Of a DNA stretch of 64,000 nucleotides, positions 16,072-60,473 are shown piece by piece. Position numbers and translations under genes: made by a program. How positions within the stretch are numbered: the stretch's first letter is position 1; the number at the start of each line of letters is the position of its first letter. The DNA is from Candidatus Zhuqueibacterota bacterium (lineage in GTDB: Bacteria; Zhuqueibacterota; Zhuqueibacteria; Residuimicrobiales; Oceaniaggregativiventaceae): positions 1 through 64,000 of the forward strand of contig WJME01000117.1 of the NCBI GenBank assembly GCA_014728115.1. The letters are read 5' to 3'. The notes beneath the pieces were generated by a model. It saw only the letters and a program-made list of their open reading frames with translations, was not told the DNA's origin and made no database searches.

Positions 16072-17607
16072 ATGAGTAGCACCAAACCCCGAATATTGCT
16101 TATCGAAGACGATACGGACCAGGCGTTTGTCTTGAGATATTTTTTAAAAAACAGCGGATATGCAGTAGACTGGTGCTCCAAACCGGATTCATGCTTAAAA
16201 TCCGCCAAATCGAATGCGTATGACCTGATATTGCTCGACATCAATCTCAGTGCTGATATAGATGGTTTTGAATTGATACGCAGATTCAAAGCCGATCCTC
16301 TGCTGCAACCCATCCCGGTGATGATGGTCACGGCCCGAACCAAAGTGCAAGACCGGGTCAGTGGTCTGAACCTGGGCGCCGATGATTATATTACCAAACC
16401 ATTTAATCAAGCCGAACTTGCCAGCCGCATAAAAACCGTACTTAAACGAAAAATCTACCTCGACCTGGCCAATCGCTATCGCGAGCTGCTGGAAAACAAC
16501 AGGGATTTGGTTCTGTTTCTGAACAAAAAAGGACAAATCGAACACGTCAATAAAAGAGCAGAATCCGTACTGCCGCACCTCATCGCAACCGAACGACAGC
16601 TGGATTTTATCGATCTCTTTGATGAAGAGTTTCACGATCCGGTGTCATCGACTTTGTACAATGCCTTGAATGGCAAGGATGTCTCGCCAAAGGTGTGGCG
16701 TTTACGGGATACAGGGGAACATCAGGTCATGGTTGAAGTTCAATTGACTCCTCTCAGGCACAGCGATCAGGTCATCGGATTGGGCTGTACCCTCAAAGAT
16801 CCCAGCATGCATGAACAAAAATTCAAAAAGTTGGAACAAACCACACACGGTCTGTTGGAAAAAATAAAAAACCAGAATGCTCAACTGGATGAAATCCAGC
16901 AAAAGCTGGTCATGTCGGAAAAATTAGCGGTTATGGGACAATTGGCTGCCGGTGTTGCACACGAATTTCGCAATCCCCTCAACAGTATCAGTCTGTCGGT
17001 ACAGTTTCTTAAAATGATCTCAAAATCGGAAAAACCAAAATTCCATGAACATCTCCACATGATCGAGCAAGAAGTCAAACGATCCCAAAAAATCATTGAT
17101 AACCTGCTAAAATTTGCAAAAAAATCACCTGCCAAAGAGCGGTTGGATATCCGTATGATTCTGGATCAAACCCTGACCTTGATTGCAAAACCATTAAAAT
17201 TACACAATGTGGAAATAAAAAAGAGCTATAATCACATTAATCTGGTATATGTCAATGCAGATGATATGAAACAGGTATTTTTGAATCTCTTTCTCAATGC
17301 CATAGATGCCATGCCCAGGGGAGGGCTTGTCAGTGTGCAGACCAGGGAGGACAAAGAGAGCGTACGGGTAAAAATTTCTGATACCGGCCCGGGAATATCC
17401 AAAAGCGATCAGCAAAAAATTTTCGAACCGTTTTTTACTCGCAAAGAAACAGGTTCCGGTGTCGGGCTGGGGTTATCCATTGTTCACTCTGCCATCGATC
17501 GAAATAAAGGATCCATCGAAGTAGACAGCGAACCCGGCCTCGGCACGACATTCAATATTTACCTTCCGGTGCAGGAACATCATGAACCAGGTGATTTTAT
17601 CACATAA
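16072..17607 (+). CDS. Response-regulator / histidine-kinase hybrid
   Basis: A 511-residue cytoplasmic signalling protein with no membrane segment. Residues 1-125 are a receiver domain (ILLIEDDTD; phosphoacceptor D56; TAR and ITKPF). About 130-245 look like a PAS domain (LVLFLNKKGQIEHVNKRAE). A coiled coil (245-285) leads to the HisKA dimerisation helix with the phosphorylated histidine H297 in AAGVAHEFRNPLNSI, then an HATPase domain with FLNLFLNAIDAMP, SDTGPGIS and GVGLGLSIV. The receiver-first order suggests it is itself a target of another kinase and relays on. The NtrC-type gene 84 bases downstream is the obvious output partner. Confidence 0.93.
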   Translation: MSSTKPRILLIEDDTDQAFVLRYFLKNSGYAVDWCSKPDSCLKSAKSNAYDLILLDINLSADIDGFELIRRFKADPLLQPIPVMMVTARTKVQDRVSGLNLGADDYITKPFNQAELASRIKTVLKRKIYLDLANRYRELLENNRDLVLFLNKKGQIEHVNKRAESVLPHLIATERQLDFIDLFDEEFHDPVSSTLYNALNGKDVSPKVWRLRDTGEHQVMVEVQLTPLRHSDQVIGLGCTLKDPSMHEQKFKKLEQTTHGLLEKIKNQNAQLDEIQQKLVMSEKLAVMGQLAAGVAHEFRNPLNSISLSVQFLKMISKSEKPKFHEHLHMIEQEVKRSQKIIDNLLKFAKKSPAKERLDIRMILDQTLTLIAKPLKLHNVEIKKSYNHINLVYVNADDMKQVFLNLFLNAIDAMPRGGLVSVQTREDKESVRVKISDTGPGISKSDQQKIFEPFFTRKETGSGVGLGLSIVHSAIDRNKGSIEVDSEPGLGTTFNIYLPVQEHHEPGDFIT

Positions 17608-17691: not shown

Positions 17692-19056
<1,365 letters not shown>

Positions 19057-19250: not shown

Positions 19251-19266
19251 TGGCATGCAGCTTGCA
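19251..19266 (+). promoter_or_regulatory. Sigma-54 (-24/-12) promoter
   Basis: TGGCATGCAGCTTGCA matches the sigma-54 consensus TGGCAYRNNNNTTGCW at every fixed position, with the GG and GC elements at the correct 12-base offset. Transcription should start near 19277. This rules out the ATG inside the promoter (19255) as the start of the following gene and points to 19318. The sigma-54 activator gene ends 194 bases upstream. Confidence 0.85.
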
Positions 19267-19317
19267 TATAAAGAGCCAGAGGCCCATCAGAAATATGACA
19301 GCATTGGAATCGCACCT

Positions 19318-20325
19318 ATGACACAAGCCAGAATTAAACCAGAGCAGCCTTTGCCGCATCAGTTTGGAAACAATCAGATCAGCACCCGAATATGGGCGAT
19401 TGCCGGTAATAGTCGGCAATCAGGTAAATCAACGATTACAAATGCCATTGGAGGATTGTTTGCGCATTACGGTCATTACGTTCATATGCTCAACTCGGAT
19501 CTCGACCAGGATCTTATGGTGGGTGAAGAGGGTGCAGATGAACACGCGCAGCAAAGCATTGGCAAACTGTTTTCACGAGTGGGGATGGAATATCTGGAAT
19601 CCTTGAAATTTATTATGCGTAACGCCACCGGGCTTTCCAGTTTGAACCAGGGGCCTAAATGGCGGCACGTCTTGTTGGATCTGAATACTCATCTCACGCA
19701 TGAAAATCTTGATTTTTTCCTGATTGCCGACTATCCGGTCATTGTATTGAAACCGACACTGGATTCATTGGACGAACTGGGTGTTTATTTGAACGCGTGT
19801 GTATTCAGAATTATAGAACACACCCTTCCTGAACAGGAGACAAAACTCAATTTGCTGGCAGAGAGCATTACAAAAAGGCGAATCCCCTTACACAAGATAA
19901 AACTGGACTATATTTTTGACCAGTTTGACCGTCCTGTGCGCAGCATGATCAAGGAAGCGTTGTACGATTTTAATCCCAAAATCATTCTAAATTGCTTTAT
20001 GGATCCGACGACCTATTCATATATGGTCAATTTCATCGACAGCTATTACAAACCCTATGTCCCCAATCTTTCGATATTGGGTGCTCTTCCGGATGACCCC
20101 GGGAGTGTGAAAATGATTTCTGCTTTAAACTATTTATATATTTCGAGTCAATCTGATCCAAGATTGAAATCCATAGCACAGTATTTGGCTGGCCGTATCA
20201 GTAACCTAATGGCCAAATCAGATGATCAACAAAGGAGCAATACCCTATTCGTCGATGATACGTTTAGTATTCGCCAGAATACGACTTTTCAAAAACAGAT
20301 GGACATAAAAAACCGATTAAACTAG
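19318..20325 (+). CDS. MinD/ParA-like P-loop ATPase
   Basis: A 335-residue protein. The N-terminal IWAIAGNSRQSGKSTITNAIG (25-45) is a P-loop in the position of the MinD/ParA motif; the second conserved segment is HVLLDLNTH and the third LIADYPVIVLKPTLDSLDE, typical of MinD/FlhG-like ATPases of the deltaproteobacterial and FCB type. The signature lysine of the deviant Walker A (KGGxGK) is serine here, while the K37-S-T core is kept, so dimer-type ATP hydrolysis may be altered. The start is set by the sigma-54 promoter. Cargo unknown; positioning of an envelope or regulatory complex is possible. Confidence 0.75.
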   Translation: MTQARIKPEQPLPHQFGNNQISTRIWAIAGNSRQSGKSTITNAIGGLFAHYGHYVHMLNSDLDQDLMVGEEGADEHAQQSIGKLFSRVGMEYLESLKFIMRNATGLSSLNQGPKWRHVLLDLNTHLTHENLDFFLIADYPVIVLKPTLDSLDELGVYLNACVFRIIEHTLPEQETKLNLLAESITKRRIPLHKIKLDYIFDQFDRPVRSMIKEALYDFNPKIILNCFMDPTTYSYMVNFIDSYYKPYVPNLSILGALPDDPGSVKMISALNYLYISSQSDPRLKSIAQYLAGRISNLMAKSDDQQRSNTLFVDDTFSIRQNTTFQKQMDIKNRLN

Positions 20326-20365
20326 ATCATTGGATCTTTTGACCACCCCACCCTAGTTATAAAAA

Positions 20366-20619
20366 GGGGATGGTAGTTCATTGATAAGCATCTTTTGCAA
20401 TGCACCCTTGCTATGCATCATTTGTCAGGCACCCTGGATGCACCTTTTGTTACAGCAACTTGGATGCAACGCGTCAGACAACATTGCCCGCAGTTAGGCA
20501 ACTCTAGAAGAGCTATCTTTGCAATGCAACGAGAGCTGGGCAGCTCGTCGGAACGTGCAACGTTTCGCTATGCAACTCTGAATAGCTTCCGGGCATAGAA
20601 CTATCATCCCCGTTTTTTT
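20366..20619 (+). ncRNA. Candidate structured RNA with long closing stem and T-run
   Basis: GGGGATGGTAGTTC (20366-20379) pairs along all 14 positions (one G-T) with GAACTATCATCCCC (20598-20611), which is followed by G and seven T. The 218 bases inside hold local hairpins: CTCT/AGAG at 20502-20512, GAGCT/AGCTC at 20533-20546, AACGT/ACGTT at 20552-20564, GCTAT/ATAGC at 20567-20586. ATGCA occurs six times (20400, 20413, 20438, 20464, 20524, 20570). The short open frame inside has no ribosome site. It does not resemble 6S, tmRNA, SRP or RNase P RNA as I know them. The T-run suggests intrinsic termination, so it could be a self-contained transcript or the structured 3' end of the ATPase mRNA. Confidence 0.55.
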
Positions 20620-20637
20620 GCTGCACCGCATCAAAAA

Positions 20638-20685: not shown

Positions 20686-20720
20686 GTTGTGGGGGTATGT
20701 GTGGTGGTTTAGGAGGATTT

Positions 20721-21257
20721 ATGTTCGTTCGTTTTTCGTGTCAGGGTATTCAGTTCATACTGCTATCAACCCTCCTGTTTTTCAACCTTTTACTTGGTAA
20801 AACTGATCCGACATCTAAAACTGCATCAACAGACAGCAGTAAAACATCAAATACATCTTTGGAAAAGCCTCTTTTTTCAGCACTCAGCAAAAATGATATG
20901 CCGTCATGGCTAAAGTCTTTGGACAAACCAGAACCCGGTCCCGACTCTCTGGCAACTCTGCGGACTCGTGAATTCTTGTCCAAAGTTTTAACCTTGAACA
21001 GCAAAGAACTGCAAAAACAATATCGCGATCATCTCAAACTCTATCCTGATAACCAGGGCAAAATCATACTCAAGCTGTTTGTCACGCCGCCCGGGGCTGT
21101 GGATAAAGTCGAAATCTTGTCGTGCTCGATGGATAACGCGTTTAAGGATCAGGTTCTCGAAACGGTTGAAAAATGGGATAATCTGGGATTGTGTGATTGC
21201 GATTGTATCAAAGTATACGTCCAGGAATTCATTTTCGGAGAAAACACGTCCAAGTAA
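20721..21257 (+). CDS. Exported protein with TonB/AgmX-like C-terminal domain
   Basis: A 178-residue protein. I choose the ATG at 20721 because AGGAGG sits four bases before it. Residues 1-30 are a signal/anchor helix (IQFILLSTLLFFNLLLG), followed by a Ser/Thr/Lys-rich linker. The C-terminal 75 residues, with GKIILKLFVTPPGAVDKVEI and FKDQVLETVEKWD, follow the pattern of the TonB C-terminal / AgmX-PglI gliding-type domain. The end carries an unusual Cys-rich LCDCDC. It is short for a TonB and lacks the Pro-rich spacer. It may be part of an envelope complex with the ATPase upstream and the membrane-tethered regulator downstream. Confidence 0.55.
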   Translation: MFVRFSCQGIQFILLSTLLFFNLLLGKTDPTSKTASTDSSKTSNTSLEKPLFSALSKNDMPSWLKSLDKPEPGPDSLATLRTREFLSKVLTLNSKELQKQYRDHLKLYPDNQGKIILKLFVTPPGAVDKVEILSCSMDNAFKDQVLETVEKWDNLGLCDCDCIKVYVQEFIFGENTSK

Positions 21258-21391: not shown

Positions 21392-21859
21392 ATGTCGAGA
21401 ATTTTAATCGTTGACGACGAAGAGGACATTCTGGCCACATTGCCCGAGGTTCTCTCACGCTGGGGCCATACTACCTTTACCGCAGCAAATGGTCTCGAGG
21501 GTCTCAAGGTCTTTAAAGAACAGCCCATTGACTTTGTCATCACGGATATTAAAATGCCTCATATGGATGGCCTGGAACTGTTGAAAAAAATTCAGGAAAT
21601 CGATAAAAAAACCATGGTCATTTTCTTAACGGGTTACCCCTCGCTGGATTCAGCCATTTCAGCCATGCGTTCAGGCGCGTATGATTATCTGGTCAAGCCC
21701 GTCAACCTGGACGAGCTGAAACTGCGAATCGAACGCGGTATCGAACGAACAGAACACTTGAAAGCACTGCCATTGCTGCGAGGCTTGAACTGGGCCTTGC
21801 TGGTCTCCATTCCGCTTTGGCTGGTCCTGGGAATTATTCTTGCAAAACTATTACGATAG
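21392..21859 (+). CDS. Response regulator receiver with C-terminal membrane anchor
   Basis: A 155-residue protein. Residues 1-122 form a complete receiver domain (ILIVDDEED; phosphoacceptor D52 in VITDIKMPHMDG; LTGY; LVKPVN). Instead of a DNA-binding output it ends with a single hydrophobic helix (about 132-152, LNWALLVSIPLWLVLGIILA) and a short basic tail, so the receiver should face the cytoplasm as a tail-anchored protein. Tail-anchored receivers are rare. One base after its stop comes a small gene and then cstA, so a role in controlling uptake or membrane partners is plausible. Confidence 0.85.
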   Translation: MSRILIVDDEEDILATLPEVLSRWGHTTFTAANGLEGLKVFKEQPIDFVITDIKMPHMDGLELLKKIQEIDKKTMVIFLTGYPSLDSAISAMRSGAYDYLVKPVNLDELKLRIERGIERTEHLKALPLLRGLNWALLVSIPLWLVLGIILAKLLR

Positions 21860-22178: not shown

Positions 22179-23972
22179 ATGTTAGCGAGTTTGCTCATAG
22201 TCATTGGAATCATTCTCTTTATCCTTGCCTACCGGATTTACGGTCGAATGCTCAGCCGCAAAATGGACATCGATGATACCACGACCACCCCTGCACACGC
22301 GATACAGGACGGCGTGGATTACGTTCCGGCAAAATCACCTGTCCTCCTGGGTCACCACTTTGCTTCCATCGCCGGAGCCGGACCTATCCTCGGCCCGATC
22401 ATTGCCTCTGCCTTTGGCTGGCTCCCTGTGTTGATCTGGATCATTATCGGGGGTATCTTTTTCGGCGGCGTGCATGATATGGGGTCGCTGGTCGCCTCGA
22501 TACGCCATCAAGGGCGTTCCATCGGACAAATTATCGAAGACTATTTGGGGAAAGGCGGGAAAATGCTTTTTCTCATCTTTGCCTATCTCACGATGATTCT
22601 GGTGATCGCTGTCTTTTGTAAAATCGTGGCCACCACGTTTGTGTCCGTGCCTGCTGTGGCCACCTCCTCATTTCTGTTTATCCTGGTCGCCCTGGCATTC
22701 GGATTTTTTGTCTCGAGACGCAAATTGCCCCTTGGGCCCACATCCATTATCGGGGTCGTGCTTTTGTTTTCTGCGATCTATGCCGGCAATAAATATCCGA
22801 TGGTGGTATATGATCGATTTGTTTCTCCCCAAACAGAGAGCACCATCGCTCAGCTGGTGGAAGACAAAGAGGTTGCCAATGCCCATTCGCCTGTAAACAT
22901 CAAACAGGCCTTTCAGGCCCGCGAAATGACCCGGGCTTATCAGGATGTCGTGGCCGCCGAAGAAAAGGCGAATACGTTTTGGATCTATATCCTCCTCATT
23001 TATGTGTTTATCGCCGCCACTACCCCGGTATGGATCCTCTTGCAGCCCCGCGACTATCTCAATTCGTTTTTGCTCTATGCCCTGGTTCTGGGAGGGATTA
23101 TCGGCATCTTTTTCGCCGGCCCGGTCACCACCATGCCCTCTGTCACCGGATTCCAGACCAATCTCGGCTATCTCTTTCCAGTCTTGTTCGTCACCGTGGC
23201 CTGTGGGGCGATTTCCGGATTTCATTCCCTGGTTGCCAGTGGAACCACGGCCAAACAGCTGAACAAAGAATCGGATGCCAAGGCCATCGGCTATGGAGGC
23301 ATGCTCATCGAATCTGTACTGGCCATCGTGGCGCTCGTCGCTGCAGCCACACTGGCCAGAGAACGGTTCTCGACATTATACCAGAGCGGTGATTTTATCG
23401 CGGTCTTTTCCGAAGGCGTGGGATGGTTCATGTCAAAGATACCCCTCATCGGCATTTCTCAGGGAGCTGCCATCACCTTTGCCGGACTGGCGGTCTCGGC
23501 CTTTGCCTTGACATCTCTGGATACCTGTACGCGGCTGGCCAGATTTGCATTGCAGGAATTCTTTGATGTCAAAAAAGCCACCAAACCTCTGATCGTCAGA
23601 AATCGCTATATGGCCACCGGTATCACGGTGGCGATCAGCGCGGTGTTTATCTTTTCAGGGTCCTCCGGAGCGATCTGGCCTATCTTTGGATCCGCCAATC
23701 AGCTCCTCGCGGCCCTCGCCCTCCTGGCAGTCTCGGTCTGGCTGGCCAATATGAAAAAGAAAAACTGGTTTACGGTCATTCCCATGATTTTCATGTACGC
23801 CGTGACCCTCACCGCCCTGGTCACCCTGATGTGGCAAAATTTGCACAAACAAAACTATACCCTGGTCTTTGTCGGGGTGTTTCTCTTTATCGTGGCCGTG
23901 ATCCTGGCGGTTCAGGGAGGGAAAAAACTGTGGGGTAAACCCACCCTGTCCCCGCAATCACAGAGTAGTTAA
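22179..23972 (+). CDS. cstA: CstA-family carbon-starvation transporter
   Basis: A 597-residue multi-pass membrane protein with family hallmarks: an early RIYGRMLSRKMDIDD segment, HHFASIAGAGPILGPIIASA, GGVHDMGSLVASIRHQGRS, and later VACGAISGFHSLVASGTTAK and ITFAGLAVSAFALTSLDTCTRLARF. The family imports peptides or pyruvate on starvation; this length is close to the shorter CstA relatives (E. coli CstA is about 700). AGAGGATCG precedes the ATG. It follows the tethered receiver and small gene, and precedes pgi by 13 bases, so central-carbon functions are grouped. Confidence 0.93.
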   Translation: MLASLLIVIGIILFILAYRIYGRMLSRKMDIDDTTTTPAHAIQDGVDYVPAKSPVLLGHHFASIAGAGPILGPIIASAFGWLPVLIWIIIGGIFFGGVHDMGSLVASIRHQGRSIGQIIEDYLGKGGKMLFLIFAYLTMILVIAVFCKIVATTFVSVPAVATSSFLFILVALAFGFFVSRRKLPLGPTSIIGVVLLFSAIYAGNKYPMVVYDRFVSPQTESTIAQLVEDKEVANAHSPVNIKQAFQAREMTRAYQDVVAAEEKANTFWIYILLIYVFIAATTPVWILLQPRDYLNSFLLYALVLGGIIGIFFAGPVTTMPSVTGFQTNLGYLFPVLFVTVACGAISGFHSLVASGTTAKQLNKESDAKAIGYGGMLIESVLAIVALVAAATLARERFSTLYQSGDFIAVFSEGVGWFMSKIPLIGISQGAAITFAGLAVSAFALTSLDTCTRLARFALQEFFDVKKATKPLIVRNRYMATGITVAISAVFIFSGSSGAIWPIFGSANQLLAALALLAVSVWLANMKKKNWFTVIPMIFMYAVTLTALVTLMWQNLHKQNYTLVFVGVFLFIVAVILAVQGGKKLWGKPTLSPQSQSS

Positions 23973-59093: not shown

Positions 59094-59154
59094 TTGAATT
59101 AAGAATGAAAAAGTGAGAATGAATTTTATTCTCAATTCTTCATTCTTAATTCAA
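59094..59154. terminator. Long palindromic hairpin between convergent genes
   Basis: TTGAATTAAGAATGAA (59094-59109) pairs perfectly with TTCATTCTTAATTCAA (59139-59154), and an inner TGAGAAT/ATTCTCA adds seven more pairs around GAATTTT. It lies between two converging genes and may end both transcripts, although it lacks a long T-run. Confidence 0.7.
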
Positions 59155-59219: not shown

Positions 59220-60473
59220 TTATTTCTTTTCGAACCATCGCAAATAGTCAGTCAGGAATCGCAAGCCAAACGAGGTGGCGATATCGCGGTTGACGATCCA
59301 GACCTGATCGTGAATAAAGCGTACACGGGTTTCAAAAAATCCACCGGCCAGGTTCACATCCGGATGATTTGCCGGATATTGATTGGCCAACAACCAGTCC
59401 ACCGATTTTTCAATGTTTTCCTCAAACTCTTCGCCCACACCATATTGCAGCAAACGCAGCCATAGCATGCCGGTAAAGGCCACAGCAGAGCCACAAATAG
59501 ATTTGCGGTTGATCTTGCCGGACACATAGTTTTTATAATAAAACGTGCCATCCCCTTGCTGATATCGCGTGTAAAACCTGGCCGTTTTCAGGGCGGCATC
59601 CAGATAAGCCTTGTTTTGAGTGAGCTCATACCCTTCCAAGAGGGATTCTGCATACCAGAGATTAAAGCGCGGATGAAAATAGCCGCTTTCCTTGTCATTG
59701 GGCATAAAATCCATCCACAATCCATACTCATCCTGATAATCCACAAGGGCGTCACAGAGCTGGACAAAGATATCGCGGTATTTTTCATTGCCGGTATGTT
59801 CATACATGTCTTTAAAGAGCGATCCCTCATTGTTGGGCCGGGCCACATCAAAGAGTTGTTGATTTTCTTTATCCGGCCAAAACGGACTCCAGTCTTTCAG
59901 CACCTCGCCTGTCCGGGCATCGATATTATCATAGAACACCCGTTTTTCCGGCACCCACATGTGTTCCAGCATCCAGGCTCCGGCCTCGGTGGCCACATCG
60001 GCATAGTGATCATTGTCTGTCACCTTGGCGAGCTCAAAGAGCCCGGCTGAGCCATCCGAAACCGTCGCAAAGACGATATAGGGGATCTGGTCGCCATGGA
60101 TGGCATTGAGCATGCCCGTTAATTTGGGATGATCTTTGATCTGTAAAGAGGTCCACCAGTCGCCGGCAGCTTTGGCGGCCTCGAGATAGAGCGGCTCCTG
60201 TGTAATGCGGTACGCCTCTACCAGGCCATAGATCACCTGTCCGGTATGCCAGGCCGGTTCGTAATCATACCAGCGACCATTGATGATGTGATAATCGCAT
60301 CTGGATTTACCTTCCTCATCCAGCAAGACCTCGCTGCTGTACTGTGCAGCCTCATTGATCGCCTTGATAATCGCAGCCTTGCGGGTCAAACCGCTTTGAG
60401 CAAACACCACAACAAATCCGCTCAAAAAAAGGATAGCAATCATTGTGCGAATAAACCTTTTATTGATCTTCAT
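59220..60473 (-). CDS. Exported six-hairpin glycosidase (GH88/GH105-like)
   Basis: A 417-residue protein with a signal peptide (TMIAILFLSGFVVVFA) and GAGGAG before the ATG. Repeated helical hairpins of an (alpha/alpha)6 barrel are clear: YEPAWHTGQVIYGLVEAYRI, YLEAAKAAGDWWTSLQ, VSDGSAGLFELAKVTD, PNNEGSLFKDMYEHTG. Family-wise it is closest to unsaturated glucuronyl/rhamnogalacturonyl hydrolases or AGE-type enzymes; catalytic Asp pairs could not be fixed by eye. With the heparinase-like lyase it could finish cutting 4,5-unsaturated oligosaccharides. Confidence 0.75.
   Translation of the reverse strand: MKINKRFIRTMIAILFLSGFVVVFAQSGLTRKAAIIKAINEAAQYSSEVLLDEEGKSRCDYHIINGRWYDYEPAWHTGQVIYGLVEAYRITQEPLYLEAAKAAGDWWTSLQIKDHPKLTGMLNAIHGDQIPYIVFATVSDGSAGLFELAKVTDNDHYADVATEAGAWMLEHMWVPEKRVFYDNIDARTGEVLKDWSPFWPDKENQQLFDVARPNNEGSLFKDMYEHTGNEKYRDIFVQLCDALVDYQDEYGLWMDFMPNDKESGYFHPRFNLWYAESLLEGYELTQNKAYLDAALKTARFYTRYQQGDGTFYYKNYVSGKINRKSICGSAVAFTGMLWLRLLQYGVGEEFEENIEKSVDWLLANQYPANHPDVNLAGGFFETRVRFIHDQVWIVNRDIATSFGLRFLTDYLRWFEKK

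Follow-up and report, generated by a model that had tools for sequence, protein, structure and literature searches.

A GCAHC-repeat RNA behind a σ54-linked ATPase gene in KSB1 bacteria: a candidate for a new family of protein-titrating regulatory RNAs

The DNA that follows a MinD/FleN-like ATPase gene in a KSB1 bacterium raises the question of whether a structured RNA is encoded there and, if so, what such an RNA might do. Within the window, by which we mean the whole 64-kb stretch of DNA that was analysed, the element occupies 20361–20619 on the + strand and consists of a closing stem, an interior carrying repeats of the motif GCAHC (GCATC, GCAAC or GCACC) and a T tract. The predicted 14-bp stem with one G-T pair and 218 enclosed nucleotides was confirmed, its 5' arm being GGGGATGGTAGTTC (20366–20379, +) and its 3' arm GAACTATCATCCCC (20598–20611, +). 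The latter is followed by a G and seven T (20613–20619, +), the likely 3' end of the RNA, and a T tract also follows the stem in most relatives. The pairing continues outward into 20361–20365, reaching into an A run and the T tract. Six copies of ATGCA are likewise present inside the element as had been reported, against about 0.25 expected from the rate in the window (63 per strand in 64 kb). The closing stem by itself is not remarkable: it lies near chance for a 64-kb window, which contains three inverted repeats of such quality against 0–2 in each of 20 first-order random windows, and it constitutes weak evidence. The folding z-score of the element is only -2.05. It is the comparison across genomes, in itself a comparison of sequences, that settles the case for the element.

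A covariance-model search with Rfam 15 yielded no match to the element at the gathering threshold, nor any credible one with E values up to 5, in agreement with the original prediction that this is no housekeeping RNA; at the gathering score the only hit was a tRNA elsewhere in the window, and lax thresholds gave merely chance matches for the element. In blastn searches of 60 relatives its sequence matched only its own genome, where it is present in one copy. No DNA similarity to it was detected in phages or plasmids, and no description of it was found in the literature searched. A protein-coding signature, which would have spoken against an RNA, was looked for and not found, there being no conserved open frame and no motif spacing in multiples of three. 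A role in a retron, previously considered unlikely, remains so with no reverse transcriptase beside the RNA; the flanking genes with named domains encode a two-component system and TonB_C-like, receiver and CstA proteins, and the ATPase belongs to no Pfam family.

An equivalent RNA was identified in 11 genomes including the window, all from three families of one KSB1 order and always directly after the MinD/FleN-like ATPase gene, the closest named relatives of which are likewise from candidate division KSB1 genomes. These comprise the family of the window (the window, G001, G002 and G003), family f2 (G004, G008, G009, G011, G013 and G015) and family f5 (G007). The first five counterparts were found by reading the DNA behind the ATPase gene in relatives, and the total was raised to eleven by a pattern for the 3' arm together with direct inspection of further ATPase loci. 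The genomes are drafts, and some loci are from close relatives (G009 and G013); the RNA of G002 is split between two contig ends sharing an overlap of 141 identical bases. A covariance model built solely from the six f2 RNAs, with no member of the window family, recovered the window element from its whole genome with 34 bits (E=2.4e-6). It is the 5' arm and the repeats, and not the 3' arm, that carry this match, which is hence partly independent of the stem. The length of the element ranges from 156 to 471 nt among the loci, with the stem and motif being retained throughout.

In the rest of the class and phylum, covariance-model searches returned only weak matches beyond the known loci. One of these, in G018 (E=5.5e-4), lies antisense inside another gene with a single motif in the match and was rejected as chance; pattern matches outside the order were likewise discarded, as both the 5' arm and the repeats were missing. 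Fast filters missed diverged members, namely G007 and, in one search, G002 and G003, so absence elsewhere in the class or phylum is not proven.

Compensatory changes in the closing stem, the absence of which would have refuted the original prediction, were found among the homologous loci, with 9 of the 15 pairs changed on both sides. In the eleven-row alignment of the arms, 93.3% of the cells are paired, against 43–67% when the partner arm is slid, and the double-sided changes amount to 17 cells in the nine pairs. The observed covariation score of 0.384 compares with a shuffled mean of 0.202 (sd 0.025) and was not reached by any of 500 shuffles. For example, the second pair beyond GGG switches from C-G to T-A and the following one from G-C to A-T, and in the outer run A-T becomes T-A or G-C. 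Because the stem served as a criterion in finding several of the relatives, the share of paired cells is inflated; most of the double-sided changes are contributed by the window, G001/G003, G007 and G002, and these four relatives were recognised by their position behind the ATPase gene. In the interior no local helix is convincingly conserved across the relatives, and the four local hairpins proposed earlier are not retained among them.

What is conserved in the interior is a repeat, though not ATGCA, which had been taken for it, but GCAHC at a spacing of 11–15 nt. The RNA of the window contains eleven copies between 20388 and 20576 (+), beginning at 20388, 20402, 20415, 20429, 20440, 20455, 20466, 20498, 20526, 20557 and 20572, against 1.4 in dinucleotide shuffles, none of 2000 of which scored as high, and two on the antisense strand. 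The eleven RNAs together contain 88 copies in sense orientation, 3–14 per RNA, against 8 in antisense; the sense count exceeds all 2000 dinucleotide shuffles in nine of them, and in the other two it was reached by 15 and 19 of 2000. The motif was defined after looking at the data. In a ranking of 5-mers over the interiors of ten RNAs, GCATC came first (37 against 5.0 expected) and GCAAC second (26 against 4.1), the flanks being roughly TCAG-GCAHC-TTTG. Of 77 spacings, 46 fall at 11–15 nt, against 12.8 (sd 3.2) under random placement, and the A-H-C part is predicted to be unpaired at about 0.6, against 0.40 at other interior positions. Four GCAHC within 70 nt occur in the window only in the RNA, with the exception of one place at 59900, a separate cluster of four within 69 nt; among other GCAHC triples examined in the same genome no comparable clusters were seen.

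These properties satisfy the sequence criterion for a protein-titrating (sponge) RNA, namely a short motif that recurs many times at accessible positions and is conserved while the remainder varies. By analogy, the spaced motif copies, the variable interior and a two-component σ54 switch, described below, together are the design of protein-titrating RNAs. We accordingly favour, with a probability of roughly two in three, the reading that the element represents a new family of protein-titrating non-coding regulatory RNA, novel in its motif and with its partner still to be identified, under two-component/σ54 control. The GCAHC copies would then be protein-binding sites, a proposal for which there are no binding data. 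GCAHC shows no excess around the gene starts of the window, which speaks against this reading in that no target set is visible there. The principal alternative is a multi-seed antisense RNA, in which GCAHC would base-pair with GDUGC sequences, whether of a single partner RNA or of numerous mRNAs, the molecule acting as an RNA sponge or base-pairing regulator. The motif is indeed short and partly exposed, and its complement, G-(A/U/G)UG-C, can include a start codon. However, a given RNA shows no constraint at the fourth motif base, which is A, C, T and sometimes G; this would break Watson-Crick pairing to any single partner and agrees better with recognition by a protein than with base pairing to one partner RNA. 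The start-codon reading is not a strict one either, since GCAGC is about as frequent as GCACC (13 and 12). Hfq is also lacking in the class (0 of 63 genomes, with controls detected). An antisense role is thus unlikely, albeit still credible.

The organisation of the locus bears on how such a protein-titrating RNA might be made. The observed gene order is hybrid kinase, NtrC-type regulator, ATPase, RNA, TonB_C-like protein, membrane-anchored receiver and CstA, with an endonuclease III gene additionally present in some f2 genomes. In the window, a hybrid histidine kinase (REC-PAS-HisKA-HATPase; 16072–17607, +), the likely partner of the regulator, precedes an NtrC-type σ54-dependent response regulator (REC, AAA+, Fis HTH; 17692–19056, +), the likely activator. 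Upstream of the ATPase and the RNA lies a σ54 (-24/-12) promoter, TGGCATGCAGCTTGCA (19251–19266, +), which is the only match to TGGYAYN5TTGC in the 64-kb window. Each of the 11 loci has exactly one such match in the gap between regulator and ATPase and none elsewhere on either strand; the rate in unrelated loci is about 0.006 per 300 nt. The earlier description of the ATPase as σ54-controlled is thereby borne out. A genome of family f4, G006, has the ATPase homologue and the receiver gene but lacks the RNA, the adjacent regulator and the σ54 promoter.

The ATPase gene (19255–20325, +) encodes a P-loop protein that resembles MinD, FlhG and FleN, as judged from its sequence and a low-confidence model; its true start is probably Met24 at 19324 because of the position of the promoter. 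FleN restrains the σ54 activator FleQ, so feedback of the ATPase on the regulator is possible, which remains speculation. The ATPase gene also contains a perfect 16-bp long-range inverted repeat (19409–19734), probably by chance. Downstream of the RNA are genes for a conserved TonB_C-like exported protein (20697–21257, +; equivalents in G002 and G013), a receiver domain with a C-terminal membrane anchor (21392–21859, +; equivalents in G002, G004, G006 and G007) and the CstA carbon-starvation transporter (22179–23972, +; also in G002), at which the shared neighbourhood ends in the window family. The receiver protein, with its C-terminal membrane segment, no output domain and location beside the CstA gene, is an unusual signalling protein in its own right. 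Just past the T tract, at 20622–20632 in the leader of the TonB_C-like gene, two more GCAHC (GCACC and GCATC) form a possible autoregulatory target site. In the f2 loci L076, L081, L075, L079 and L080, a conserved stretch, CTCACACCCGACAC or GTCACACACTCGACAC, lies between the ATPase stop codon and the RNA, and in G009 and G013 it is followed, still upstream of the RNA, by a hairpin, GGGCCTTTGC...GCAAAGGCCC; this may be an additional structured portion of that 3' region. Elsewhere in the window there is a perfect 16-bp hairpin at 59094–59154.

No convincing or comparable promoter was found directly upstream of the RNA. This, taken together with the single σ54 promoter before the ATPase gene, suggests that the ATPase and the RNA probably form one σ54-driven unit, with the neighbouring regulator inferred to be its activator. 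The original proposal of a stand-alone non-coding RNA or large riboregulator is therefore supported as to its non-coding regulatory nature, but its stand-alone character is uncertain, since the sole strong promoter detected precedes the ATPase gene. The RNA may instead derive from the 3' end of the ATPase transcript through processing, although there are no transcript data.

The same promoter arrangement allows the element to be viewed as a cis-acting 3' untranslated region of the ATPase mRNA, that is a protected 3' end, a long-loop terminator or a localisation element serving its own transcript only, and the RNA of G015 does start directly at the ATPase stop codon. Yet a terminator or end-protecting stem needs no 3–14 spaced motif copies on one strand, nor would it account for a length that varies between 156 and 471 nt while stem and motif stay, making this view slightly less probable still than the antisense one. 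An element acting as DNA, either a MITE-like transposon with terminal inverted repeats or an iteron array for a DNA-binding protein, would explain the inverted ends and direct repeats. It is nonetheless highly improbable, given the lack of further copies in its own genome, the constant location across the relatives, inverted ends that change in concert between loci instead of having a fixed sequence, and one-stranded repeats with a loose spacing of 11–15 nt and an adjoining T tract.

Under the protein-titration reading a partner has to be sought. Hfq and CsrA are both excluded by their absence from the RNA-bearing genomes. RRM proteins exist in many KSB1 genomes, but they do not strictly co-occur with the RNA, being missing in 3 of the 6 f2 genomes that carry it, and were rejected. 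A KhpA-type KH protein is encoded in 11 of 11 RNA-bearing genomes; it is not discriminating because it is also found in 58 of the 63 overall. KH domains favour CA-cored tetranucleotides, and this protein is one possible partner, as a candidate only. A CsrB/RsmZ-type sponge for CsrA, to which the multi-site design and the neighbouring cstA gene (controlled by CsrA in E. coli; PMC7652899) might point, is refuted on present data, barring a highly diverged CsrA, as CsrA is absent from all 11 RNA-bearing genomes (it is present in 33 of the 63 of the class) and AGGA occurs 0 times in ten of the eleven RNAs.

If the RNA does titrate a protein, the histidine kinase and the σ54-type response regulator would sense a signal, perhaps carbon or nutrient limitation, and the regulator would activate the σ54 promoter at 19251. 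Transcription would pass through the FleN/MinD-like ATPase gene into the RNA and stop at the T tract. The long closing stem would clamp both ends, marking the RNA off and protecting it, and up to 14 evenly spaced GCAHC sites in the loosely folded interior would bind and sequester a sequence-specific RNA-binding protein, thereby freeing the target mRNAs of that protein. What the sequences themselves establish is the conserved RNA with its covarying stem, the spaced motif confined to one strand, the promoter and the common gene order; expression, activation by the neighbouring regulator, binding and titration, the partner and the targets are all inferred in this scheme. The wider proposition, on which we are evenly divided, is that KSB1 bacteria without Hfq and CsrA possess their own post-transcriptional circuit, arisen independently of CrcZ and CsrB, that runs from a two-component system through σ54 to a GCAHC RNA titrating a sequence-specific RNA-binding protein for which a role as global regulator has not so far been recognised. 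If true, the design of two-component system, σ54 and sponge RNA would have arisen on separate occasions around different protein partners, and the element would open a route to a so far unidentified sequence-specific RNA-binding protein of uncultured bacteria. At the least, the element is a clean candidate, open to testing, for another type of protein-titrating RNA in bacteria where the usual Hfq and CsrA are missing, and the defined GCAHC motif is usable as bait.

Among known systems, 6S RNA resembles the element in having a long closing stem around a large open interior, but there is no Rfam 6S match, and 6S RNA has no counterpart to the repeated motif or the σ54-linked locus. The FopS and GibS RNAs of Bacteroides with RbpB are comparable as candidates for RNA regulation around RNA-binding proteins other than Hfq. 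However, FopS RNAs are multicopy base-pairing RNAs of about 65–70 nt (PMC11697453), and the RRM protein is missing in half of the f2 genomes with the RNA. CsrB, CsrC and RsmZ share with the element many copies of one short, partly single-stranded motif, the titration of a protein, which is proposed here, and two-component control. In contrast to GCAHC, their motif is CAGGA(U/A/C)G with a GGA core, of which CsrB has about 18 (PMC7652899), and they form many hairpins where the element has one long closing stem; their partner CsrA is the one absent from the RNA-bearing genomes. The criterion of multiple (A)GGA mostly in hairpin loops is not met, GGA being present 1–5 times per RNA and AGGA nearly always lacking. 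The layout of the locus matches, by analogy, that of CbrA-CbrB-σ54-CrcZ (PMC8871633, PMC10562864, PMC4063720). In Pseudomonas, crcZ directly follows cbrB, and its activation proceeds through a σ54 promoter (PMC10562864, PMC8871633); the A-rich sites of CrcZ titrate Hfq (PMC4063720). Like CrcZ and CrcY, the element is an RNA of a few hundred nucleotides with several copies of a putative binding motif, the locus includes a σ54 promoter, which may drive the RNA, and the criterion of adjacency to an NtrC-type σ54 response regulator and its kinase is met. It differs in the ATPase gene between promoter and RNA, in the motif (GCAHC instead of the CA motif AAnAAnAA, which occurs 0 times in all 11 RNAs), in the lack of the partner Hfq from the class and in the lack of any Rfam sequence match. 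As it fails the sequence and partner tests of both CrcZ and CsrB, the element is a member of neither family; by analogy it very likely works like them, through a titration that is itself inferred.
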